Part shown: positions 39,431 to 43,285 of the stretch, one piece after another | Layout: each line of letters starts with the position of its first letter | Numbering within the stretch: the first letter of the stretch is position 1 | Virus record (IMG/VR): IMGVR_UViG_3300027779_000046 | Location: 1-47,087 of that record | DNA: 47,087 bases | Source: a virus | Reading direction: 5' to 3' (one strand) | Notes under the pieces: generated by a model | The model's input: the letters and a program-made list of their open reading frames with translations, nothing else | Told to the model about the DNA's origin: nothing | Database searches by the model: none | Program-made: the position numbers and the translations under genes

Positions 39431-40033
39431 ATGGATCCTACAAGTTTTATATCAAAATTAGATTTACATAGGGGTTTAGCTCCTTTAAACAAATTTATAG
39501 CTAGGGTTAAGTTTCCTGATGCCCTTTCAGGATTTGGCAATGTCAAGGGCGCCGCCGATACAGCCGAATATTTTTGTGATACTGCACCGATGCCAGGAAA
39601 AACAATAGCGACTTCGGAGTTAAGACATTATGGTCCGACCCGCAAACTGGGAAGAGAACAAACTTATGGAGATCTTCAATTAAGTTTTATAATGGCAAAC
39701 TCTCATATAGTAAGAAATGCATTTTTAGAATGGATGGATTATATAATTGATCCTGTAACGGCAAATATAAGATATCAAAATCAATACATAGGAACGGTTA
39801 AGGTCTTCATGTTTGATCAAATGGCGACATCAACTGCAGTAAACAGCGCTACCGTCGGTGCTGAATATCAACAAGCTTTCCCAACTAATGTTGATGCTGT
39901 TAACTTAGGTTGGGACCAATTAAATCAAGTAGGAAAATTTAGCGTGAATTTCCAATACAAAAAATGGGTTCCCATAAATGGCGCAGGGCACAATAACCCA
40001 AATAAAAGAGCACCGGGAGGCCCACCACAGTGA
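39431..40033 (+). CDS. gp19: Tail tube-family protein (gp19-like)
   Basis: 200 residues. Family blocks: DLHRGLAPLNKFIARVKFP (11-29), CDTAPMPGKTIATSELRHYG (49-68), REQTYGDLQLSFIMANSHIV and FLEWMDYIIDPV, ending GKFSVNFQYKKW. These are the strands of the gp19/T4-gp54-type tube fold. T4 gp19 has 163 residues; this one is longer by a Pro/Gly-rich C-terminus. The T4 tube gene proper lies beside the sheath gene gp18, which is outside this window, so this may be a tube-initiator paralogue and not the main tube subunit. GGAG precedes the ATG by 4-5 bases. Confidence 0.78.
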   Translation: MDPTSFISKLDLHRGLAPLNKFIARVKFPDALSGFGNVKGAADTAEYFCDTAPMPGKTIATSELRHYGPTRKLGREQTYGDLQLSFIMANSHIVRNAFLEWMDYIIDPVTANIRYQNQYIGTVKVFMFDQMATSTAVNSATVGAEYQQAFPTNVDAVNLGWDQLNQVGKFSVNFQYKKWVPINGAGHNNPNKRAPGGPPQ

Positions 40034-40081: not shown

Positions 40082-40792
40082 ATGGCTTTACCAGTCGTGA
40101 ACAATCCTACCTATGAACTTAAATTACATAGTGTGGACCACAAAATAAAATATAGACCTTTTTTAGTTAAAGAAGAAAAGATCTTACTAACAGCTCTTGA
40201 AGGCGGTGAAACAGCAGACATCGTAAGAGCTACAAAAGAAATTATCAGTAATTGTTGTCTTGATGATAGTGTTGATATTGAAAAACTTCCCGCCTTTGAT
40301 GTAGAATTATTTTTTCTAAATCTAAGAGCTCGTTCAGTTGGCGAAAGTGTTGAAATCGGCATGAAATGTCAAACCAAAGATTGCGATGAATCAGTTGCAG
40401 TTATAATTAATCTCGAAAAAATTGGTTTAGAGATTAACAAAGATCATCAGGATTTAATAAGTCTAACTAATAAAGTAAAAGTTAAATTAAAATATCCAGA
40501 TATTGATAGAATGACAAGGCCTCCGGAAGAATCACAAATGGATTCTATCTTCGCAATTACCAAAGCTTGCATAGAAGGAATTTGGGAAGGTGAAGATTAT
40601 CATGATATAAAAGATTATACGGAACAGGAATTAGAAGAATTTATTATGTCTTTAAATCAACAACAATTCGGAAAGCTTATTGCTTATTTTAATACCATGC
40701 CTAAGTTAAAGCATAAGGTATTATTTACTTGTCCAAAGTGTAATAGTAAGCAAGAATCAGTCTTGGAGGGGCTGCAGAGTTTTTTCGGTTAG
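40082..40792 (+). CDS. gp26: Baseplate hub assembly protein gp26, tape-measure chaperone candidate
   Basis: 236 residues (T4 gp26: 208). The family pattern is YELKLHSVDHKIKYRPFLVK, EEKILLTALE and FFLNLRARSVGESV. A likely zinc ribbon is formed by C96/C101 and C217/C220 (KCQTKDC and CPKC). Zero-frame translation stops at TAG 40790-40792, ending LQSFFG. A TTTTTTC heptamer at 40780-40786 lies in the phase needed for -1 slippage, so a longer 301-residue product is expected. GGAG lies about 6 bases before the ATG. It immediately precedes the tape measure gene, as genes G/GT do in many tailed phages. Confidence 0.88.
   Translation: MALPVVNNPTYELKLHSVDHKIKYRPFLVKEEKILLTALEGGETADIVRATKEIISNCCLDDSVDIEKLPAFDVELFFLNLRARSVGESVEIGMKCQTKDCDESVAVIINLEKIGLEINKDHQDLISLTNKVKVKLKYPDIDRMTRPPEESQMDSIFAITKACIEGIWEGEDYHDIKDYTEQELEEFIMSLNQQQFGKLIAYFNTMPKLKHKVLFTCPKCNSKQESVLEGLQSFFG
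40765..40786 (+). promoter_or_regulatory. Programmed -1 frameshift signal
   Basis: The heptamer T-TTT-TTC (40780-40786) is in the X-XXY-YYZ phase of the gp26 reading frame. A Shine-Dalgarno-like GGAGGGG at 40765-40771 is 8 bases upstream, similar to the stimulator of the dnaX frameshift. The -1 frame is then open for 66 codons. I see no strong downstream hairpin. Confidence 0.75.
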
Positions 40793-40986
40793 TACTCGGA
40801 CATAATACTTTACATAATTATTATAGAACTCTATTCGCAGTTGTACAAGGTCATAATTGGAGTTTGTCCGAGTTAGAAAATTTAATGTGTTATGAAAGAG
40901 AAATATATCTTACATTGCTAATAGAGCATATTGAAGAAGAGAATGATAGAATGGAACAAGAAGCAGCAAAAATGAAAAATCAATAA
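40781..40986 (+). CDS. Frameshift extension of gp26 (gp51/T-like domain)
   Basis: In the -1 frame after the slippery site the reading continues RLVLGHNTLHNYYRTLFAVV and SLSELENLMCYEREIYLTLL to a TAA at 40984-40986. There is no suitable ATG with a ribosome site before the conserved part, which argues for frameshift expression. The acidic helix and the order gp26, extension, tape measure parallel G/GT of lambda-like phages, where the T part binds the tape measure. In T4, genes 26 and 51 are adjacent; this 66-residue segment may stand in for gp51. The full product would have 301 residues. The tape measure ATG is 10 bases after the stop. Confidence 0.72.
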
Positions 40987-40996
40987 AGGAAGCTAA

Positions 40997-43285
40997 ATGG
41001 CTGAAGAAAAAGTAACAGTGACAGGAACCACTAAATCGGATCCGTCTGAAGTATCTGCGCGCAGAAAATGGCAGGAAGATGTTTCCAGTCAATTAGGTGC
41101 AGATGCTATAGCTAGCGGAATGTTTGTAAATCAAATGAAAGATTCTTTTGATAAGCAGTCTCAATTTTGGACAAACACACTTCGCCATGGCGATATGAGA
41201 AATCTCTTACTTGAAAAAATTGAAGGACATACGTATAGAAGTTCTCAAATTTTAGAGGGATACGTTGATTTTATAAAAGATGCTGAGCGTAAGAAACTAG
41301 AAGCCGCCATGGAAGCTGCGCGCCTAAAAGGTAAAGATAAAGATAAAGGTCCAGAAAATCAGAAAACCAAAGAACTCGAATTCAGTTGGGGTGGAATTGC
41401 TGCTGGAATGGCTGGTGCATTAGGTGCAGGACTTCTTGCATTTAAAGATAAATGGGGTACCATGTTTACTGGTTTTACCTCTGAACTTGATGAGTTCGGT
41501 AAGCCAAAAGTAGGTTTTTTTGCCGGCCTGAAAAAATGGCTAGGTTTTGGAGATGAAGCCCCGGCCATTAAAGAACTTGGTAAAGCTAAAAGTGGATTCT
41601 TTTTTAATTTGAAAAAGTACTTCGGATTTGAACAAAAATTTCCAGATGAACTCTCAAAAAATAAAGCTGGATATTTTGATGATCTTAAAAAGTTTTTAAA
41701 ATTTGATACTACTCAGGCTACTGCAAAAAATTGGAAAGGTGGTTTTACTAAAGATTTGAATAAAATGTTAGAGTGGAGTGGTGATCAAGGTAAATTCACC
41801 GATGCCGCTAAGAAGAAGTTTTTTCAAACACAAAATAATATGTTGAAGTGGATGGATAAAGCTGAGGATTTATCCGCCGCAGATAAAGCCGGCTTCTTGA
41901 AGAAGCAATCAAAAATGTTAGAGTGGATGGCTAAACATACTGATGGTATGGATAAGTCTAAGATAAAATTCCTAAAAGATCAATCAAAATTTTTAAAATT
42001 TGCTGAAGGAGCAGAAGGTTTATCCGATGCAGCAAAGATAAAATTCTTGAAAAAACATGCTAACATATTAGCTATTGCCGATGATGTAGTTGATGCAAGT
42101 CATGCAGCTAAAAACTCTTTCTTTGCAAAACAATTAAAAATGTTGGGTCTAGAACCAAAAGATGTTGAGGGAATTCAATTTAAAAAAGAAGGTATGTTTT
42201 CTAAATTGAAAACTAAAATTTTTCACATAGGTGACGATGTTTCAGAAACTATTAGTAAGTCTAAAACTAGTTTCACCGCGAGAATGTCCAAATTTTTAAC
42301 ATTTCCAGCGCTCGATGAAACCAGTAAATTAGGACAAGTTAAAACCGGTTTCCTAACTGCGATGGATAATATGTTAGGAACATTACTAAAAATTACAAAA
42401 GGCTTTTTTAAATTAGTAAACGTACTTAACTTTAATGCTCTTGGATTTTTAAATGCAGAGGCTCTGGCACATCCAATAAAAACATTTGAATCTTTTAAAG
42501 CCTCAATAGGTAAATCATTTGGTCCAGAAGGAGCATTCACTAAAATCTCTAATACATTTAAAGCTATAATGGCTCCTTTCGAGACTTGGATGAAACCTAT
42601 AAAAGGTATATTAAAATATGTGAAAATAATCGGAAAACTTATAGGTAAGATTTTTATTCCTATTGGTTTCTTATTTGCCGCGTTTGATGTTATAACAAAC
42701 GTTATGAAGGGTTATGAAGAGGGTGGCATTACAGGCGCAATAGGGTCGGGTATAGAGTCTATATTCGATGATGTATTGTTCGCTATCCCAAATCTTTTGG
42801 GTGAGGCAGTTGCTTGGATATTAAAGAAATTTGATTTTAATAATGCGGTAGAATTTATTGATAAAAATTTAAGAGATGCCGACGGTAATTTTTCTTTATT
42901 TACCGGCATTAAAAAAATATTTACTATGGCAGTTGATGCTCTTACGGAACACCTTATAGACCCAGTATTCCTATTCTTTCAAAACCTCCCCCAATATATT
43001 GCGGGAATGTTAATGGATATGGGTAAAATGGGTAGATTTGCCGCAGATCGATTGTTTTCGGATGAAACTGTAGCACGTGCTGAAATGGAAAGAAATGATC
43101 CCGCCGCTTACCGAAAAATGATAGAAGCTGAAAAAAAACAACGAGAATTAATAGAAGCGAAGGAAAATAAAGGTGGGGGGGCTACGTTAAATAATGTGGA
43201 TTCCAGTTCAGTTAATTCATCTACTGTTTATACACAAGTAACTAAACCGGATGCGGGCAGAAAGAGCAAAGATCCTTTGAAATAA
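40997..43285 (+). CDS. Tape measure protein (gp29 position) with 25-residue repeats
   Basis: 762 residues. It carries typical tape measure features: a charged N-terminal helical head, a Gly/Ala-rich segment (GGIAAGMAGALGAGLLAFKD, 131-150), a long helical repeat zone (about 169-470), and a hydrophobic region near 535-570 (IIGKLIGKIFIPIGFLFAAF) plus another near 590-620. About 12 repeats of near 25 residues have the form K-x-K-x-F-x-x-x-x-x-x-[ML]-L-x-[WF]. The length would predict a tail of about 110 nm at roughly 1.5 angstrom per residue. AAGGA is 6 bases upstream of the ATG. Position after gp26/extension supports the assignment. The sequence is not close to T4 gp29. Confidence 0.82.
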   Translation: MAEEKVTVTGTTKSDPSEVSARRKWQEDVSSQLGADAIASGMFVNQMKDSFDKQSQFWTNTLRHGDMRNLLLEKIEGHTYRSSQILEGYVDFIKDAERKKLEAAMEAARLKGKDKDKGPENQKTKELEFSWGGIAAGMAGALGAGLLAFKDKWGTMFTGFTSELDEFGKPKVGFFAGLKKWLGFGDEAPAIKELGKAKSGFFFNLKKYFGFEQKFPDELSKNKAGYFDDLKKFLKFDTTQATAKNWKGGFTKDLNKMLEWSGDQGKFTDAAKKKFFQTQNNMLKWMDKAEDLSAADKAGFLKKQSKMLEWMAKHTDGMDKSKIKFLKDQSKFLKFAEGAEGLSDAAKIKFLKKHANILAIADDVVDASHAAKNSFFAKQLKMLGLEPKDVEGIQFKKEGMFSKLKTKIFHIGDDVSETISKSKTSFTARMSKFLTFPALDETSKLGQVKTGFLTAMDNMLGTLLKITKGFFKLVNVLNFNALGFLNAEALAHPIKTFESFKASIGKSFGPEGAFTKISNTFKAIMAPFETWMKPIKGILKYVKIIGKLIGKIFIPIGFLFAAFDVITNVMKGYEEGGITGAIGSGIESIFDDVLFAIPNLLGEAVAWILKKFDFNNAVEFIDKNLRDADGNFSLFTGIKKIFTMAVDALTEHLIDPVFLFFQNLPQYIAGMLMDMGKMGRFAADRLFSDETVARAEMERNDPAAYRKMIEAEKKQRELIEAKENKGGGATLNNVDSSSVNSSTVYTQVTKPDAGRKSKDPLK
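41500..42390 (+). repeat. Tape measure repeat zone
   Basis: Codes about twelve repeats; four consecutive ones are exactly 25 residues long, each beginning with KKKFFQTQ, KAGFLKKQ, KIKFLKDQ and KIKFLKKH. Flanking copies are 24-27 residues and more diverged (KAKSGFFFNLKKYFGF, KNKAGYFDDLKKFLKF). Confidence 0.75.

Follow-up and report, generated by a model that had tools for sequence, protein, structure and literature searches.

A conserved poly-T slip site predicted to join gp26 and gp51 of T4-like phages into a frameshift-made pair of tail assembly chaperones

Whether the gp26-like gene of a T4-like virus and the gp51-like frame that overlaps its 3' end are translated as two separate proteins, or by a -1 ribosomal frameshift as a short and a long form of one tail assembly chaperone, is the question raised by the locus described here. 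It lies on a virus record of 47,087 bases, which was analysed over its whole length (the window) and holds genes for a T4-like neck, tail and baseplate, among them those for head closure, the DNA end protector, the tail tube, the baseplate wedge and hub, the tail sheath stabiliser and a single-strand binding protein. The features of the window given below are on the plus strand. The comparisons make it highly probable that the locus encodes a frameshift-made tail assembly chaperone pair (gp26 and gp26-gp51) of a T4-like myovirus; the frameshifting and its rate, the chaperone function and the binding of partners are inferred.

The gp26-like ORF, the putative short form ("G"-type tail assembly chaperone, 236 aa, 40082-40792), was assigned from its matches to PF12322 (T4_baseplate, E 4.7e-59) and phrog_150 (baseplate hub, E 3.7e-63). 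Its 3' end reads TTG GAG GGG CTG CAG AGT TTT TTC GGT TAG. The slippery heptamer T_TTT_TTC (40780-40786) is placed in the phase required for a -1 shift (frame 0: AGT TTT TTC GGT TAG), and the frame-0 stop TAG (40790-40792) is the second codon after it. Upstream, the SD-like stretch GGAGGGG (40765-40771, codons GAG GGG), a putative frameshift stimulator, is separated from the heptamer by a spacer of 8 nt (CTGCAGAG). The -1 frame (40786-40986) is open from CGG (40786-40788) to TAA (40984-40986), that is, for 66 codons followed by the stop, and is translated as RLVLGHNTLHNYYRTLFAVVQGHNWSLSELENLMCYEREIYLTLLIEHIEEENDRMEQEAAKMKNQ. It matches phrog_634 (E 6.8e-24), labelled "baseplate hub assembly catalyst" (gp51), and constitutes the candidate "T"-type domain. 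No start codon precedes it, the earliest ATG, GTG or TTG of the frame being a TTG (40864) that already lies midway through the conserved domain. The phase of the heptamer, the SD-like stretch at 8 bases, the stop two codons on and the startless frame of 66 codons had all been described in a first-pass annotation of this DNA, and each of these details was confirmed in the sequence; the resemblance of the second frame to gp51, also proposed there, is borne out by the phrog_634 match.

Relatives were collected in several ways. A tblastn search with the extension returned 568 phage records, mostly from cyanophages, with some from Vibrio, Aeromonas, Rhizobium and Sinorhizobium phages, and distant relatives from several lineages were gathered by single-protein queries of viral contigs. 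Scanning of 207 sequences with profiles of the G and T domains found both domains adjacent in 201; the remaining six were T4, in which the domains are on opposite strands, and five contigs without a match to the extension, all of which are short after gp26 or end within it. Sampling was by similarity to gp26 and hence was unbiased towards the slip site. In all of the 201 loci with both domains, many of which are cyanophage-like, so that they do not represent 201 independent events, the extension occupied the -1 frame, and the gp26 stop was preceded, at 7-13 nt, by an in-phase TTTTTTN; the T run was closed by C in 136 of them. When the loci were reduced to 83 representatives (<80% identical), the six T's were invariant in every one, as against 93 of 883 control Phe-Phe pairs (10.5%) from the same loci.

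Heptamer, stop and -1 frame were kept in 20 of 20 close viral contigs, and the same site was present in cultured cyanophages and other cultured phages (P-SSM2, syn9, S-SSM7, Melnitz, ValKK3, Cronobacter LPCS28 and S13, Aeromonas AsFcp_1, Rhizobium AF3, Sinorhizobium phiM19, Agrobacterium Atu_ph04, Nitratidesulfovibrio SRB7757 and C48C1). The lineages covered are Kyanoviridae, Schizotequatrovirus, Nanhuvirus, Angelvirus, Pootjesviridae, Emdodecavirus and a Nitratidesulfovibrio phage. An alignment of T4-like relatives had been suggested as a check for a conserved heptamer and -1 frame, and both are found, together with the phase and the lack of a start, across several phage families. The gp26/gp51 region of the Kyanoviridae cyanophages P-SSM2, syn9 and S-SSM7 shares with the window the gene order, the -1 frame and TTTTTTC itself, whereas amino-acid identity is at most 42-44% and annotation treats their gp51 as an ORF of its own with an arbitrarily chosen start.

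Selection on the extension was assessed from 1,803 ungapped pairs of 150 loci. The pN/pS ratio was 0.21 in the -1 frame, compared with 1.05 and 2.5 when the same region was read in the other frames, and substitutions were concentrated at third positions of the -1 frame. Stop codons, of which the other frames contained means of 6.7 and 5.9, were absent from the -1 frame in all relatives. The -1 frame is therefore under selection as a protein-coding sequence.

Codon usage upstream of the slip site was also constrained. A conserved Glu-Gly pair is encoded there with GAG in 64% of cases (28% background) and with GGG in 28% (6% background), and the predicted anti-SD pairing at these codons exceeded that obtained by synonymous resampling (Wilcoxon p 6.5e-6, 83 representatives). 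SD-like codons are favoured beyond what the amino acids need.

Downstream, the 60 nt after the heptamer were slightly more stable than shuffled sequences (mean z -0.97, control -0.34). A hairpin or pseudoknot acting as a universal stimulator was rejected, since none was common to all loci and such hairpins as were found were lineage-specific. The P-SSM2-like subset (e.g., L022:3007-3037) forms a strong hairpin of 11 bp (z -3.25) that begins some 5 nt past the heptamer and is likely to be a lineage-specific frameshift stimulator. The window, unlike this subset, showed no local structure in its 60 nt downstream of the heptamer (z +1.85). A possible long-range helix of 9 bp, with its 5' arm at 40794-40802, starting 7 nt after the heptamer, and a perfectly complementary 3' arm at 40865-40873, can be drawn; among ten close relatives, three of its pairs were changed on both sides, and at three positions three to five of the ten were unpaired, which leaves this helix suggestive only as a real structure.

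Other ways of producing the second frame were weighed against these data. The gp51 part might be a separate small protein made by termination and reinitiation (translational coupling) at the gp26 stop, with no frameshift. In about a third of the loci an ATG does occur at position +2 or +5 relative to the stop (e.g., TAATG in ValKK3 and TGATG in Atu_ph04), and databases list gp51 as a separate ORF in such loci. Against this, 123 of the 201 loci, the window included, have no ATG, GTG or TTG in the -1 frame near the junction; where an ATG does follow within a few bases of the stop (70 loci), a properly placed SD-like 4-mer was present in none, and the heptamer is no less strictly conserved in ATG-bearing loci than elsewhere. 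A normal start codon with a ribosome site for the second frame, which the first-pass annotation had named as evidence to the contrary, was not encountered among these 70 loci. The extension of T4 gp51, moreover, is fused to a gp26-like domain. The missing starts and missing SD sites rule out reinitiation as the general mechanism, and as an explanation of the locus it is improbable; in some lineages it might add free gp51.

Slippage of RNA polymerase on the T run, by which a fraction of the mRNAs would carry an extra U, appears marginally less probable still. It would agree with the invariance of a run of at least six T's, but six T's are short for efficient polymerase slippage in bacteria, the run is ended by C in 136 of 201 loci rather than lengthened, and the bias towards SD-like codons, held at a constant distance upstream, implicates the ribosome. 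That one true gene has been broken by a single-base indel, as an assembly error or a pseudogene, has in its favour that homopolymer runs are a usual place of such errors, and no other support for it was found; it is refuted by the recurrence of the arrangement, with a conserved -1 frame, in 201 loci that come from many assemblies and from cultured phage genomes, and its probability is negligible. A -1 ribosomal frameshift at the heptamer is thus preferred and, judged from the comparative data, is very probably real, strongly conserved and functional.

According to the mechanism proposed, most ribosomes would stop at TAG and release gp26, the short form. A minority would slip by -1 on T_TTT_TTC, where tRNA-Phe in both the P and the A site can re-pair on TTT TTT, aided by the upstream SD-like stretch and perhaps by downstream structure. 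The slipped ribosomes would enter the gp51 frame and yield a gp26-gp51 fusion of about 301 aa, the long form. The lambda gpG/gpGT system suggests a division of roles: gp26 alone may coat the tape measure protein, whose gene follows, and the fusion may recruit tail tube subunits through its extension.

The likeness to lambda gpG/gpGT (and to P2 E/E+E' and the HK97 gp13 type) begins with gene order, a short chaperone ORF being placed between the tail tube gene and a probable tape measure gene. It extends to a -1 heptamer near the 3' end, a startless overlapping frame and a long fusion product, here predicted. The earlier claim of a G/GT-like order before the tape measure was supported on its upstream side by the tail tube gene (39431-40033; phrog_45, E 2.2e-35), and on its downstream side stands as a probable assignment. 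The ORF concerned (762 aa, 40997-43285) has Phe/Lys-rich repeats of about 25 residues and gave no family match in domain and phrog profile searches; its counterparts in ValKK3 and phiM19 gave weak tape-measure matches (E 1.6e-6 and 1.8e-5, respectively). Position, composition and these matches in relatives suggest a divergent tape measure protein. In three close relatives (L007-L009) the next gene after the -1 frame stop starts with MASVFRTL instead of MAEEKV as in the window, and the gene after the chaperone may have been exchanged, or preceded by an insertion, in these loci.

The two systems differ in that no sequence homology was detected and in the heptamer, which is GGGAAAG in lambda G/GT. 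The gp26-like protein is also longer than the lambda-type chaperones, and the match of its fold to HK97 gp13 is partial and weak. Its AlphaFold2 model (pLDDT 93.7) gave no significant match to PDB structures, and the gp26 profile found nothing relevant among PDB sequences; the viral predicted structures matched by the model were gp26-type hub proteins. In the structure comparison with lambda-type chaperones proposed earlier, the PDB match of by far the highest probability was the HK97 tail assembly chaperone gp13 (2ob9; probability 0.63, TM 0.44 by target length), which at E 1.7 over 62 columns of 236 residues is not significant.

For a long time the only description of T4 gp51 and gp26 was as assembly factors of the baseplate hub, with an unclear role. 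In T4 gp51 (249 aa), PF12322 was matched over residues 1-201 (E 4e-52) and phrog_634 over residues 147-246 (E 1e-23). Because T4 gp51 thus holds a gp26-like domain and the homologous extension in one frame, the view that T4 gp26 and gp51 represent the short and the long form as two genes is supported by sequence. In the window a -1 shift would join a single gene pair; T4 instead has two separate genes that are divergent and on opposite strands, and gene 26 reads GAG TTC TTT GAG at the corresponding place, with no heptamer. The extension was in frame in the duplicated gp51 of five Straboviridae (T4, Aeromonas 31, a Krischvirus, RB43 and Acinetobacter Berthold). The first-pass suggestion that T4-type gp26 and gp51 are one chaperone pair accordingly gains support from the domain content of T4 gp51 and from these five proteins. 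No second gp26 copy was found in the window's own record, which is a 47-kb fragment.

In a tree of gp26 domains, all duplicated gp26 and gp51 proteins formed one group (99/99); the frameshift forms, among them those of three Straboviridae genera, fell outside it. A single duplication inside Straboviridae is a possible reading of this tree, whose branches are long and whose root is arbitrary. In T4 and its near relatives, gene 26 would then have lost its slip site (now TTC TTT), and gene 51 would have gained the extension as an in-frame fusion. In RB43 (L215:2501-3794) an in-frame gp51 is directly followed by a gp26-like ORF on the same strand, a tandem that looks like the product of duplication. 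Ackermannviridae-type loci (L207-L210, L219-L233; e.g., L207:3215-3402) have a gp51-like extension in the -1 frame without the T6 heptamer; their junction reads GAR ATT TTC ATT TAA, and that of Vibrio K441 reads TCA CTT TTC AAG TAA. These loci probably use a different shift site or some other mechanism. Tentatively, in a scenario that falls just short of an even chance, frameshifting would be ancestral in the T4-like assemblage, and would have been lost once in Straboviridae, when a duplication (still tandem in RB43) gave rise to genes 26 and 51 for the two forms. In the same scenario Ackermannviridae would have kept the -1 extension but exchanged the TTTTTTN heptamer for an invariant shift site, GAR ATT TTC ATT TAA, as a non-canonical frameshift signal.

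That gp26 and gp51 are tail assembly chaperones of T4-like phages was reported by Vladimirov, Gautam and Davidson (2022, Virology 566:9-15), as cited in PMC10885494 and PMC12846349, and PMC12846349 refers to that work in connection with poly-T slippery sequences found in the TAC-N genes of T4-like phages. As far as these citations convey, frameshifting was apparently noted there, and the core idea is therefore already known. The present analysis adds the survey, the constraint on SD-like codons, the missing starts and the distribution over lineages.

The frameshift arrangement in relatives supports the reading of T4 gp26 and gp51 as tail chaperones, and two genetic solutions, recoding and duplication, would serve to make two forms of one protein. 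The gp51 ORFs to which arbitrary starts have been given in many cyanophage, Vibrio phage and Rhizobium phage genomes should be re-annotated as joined frameshift products.
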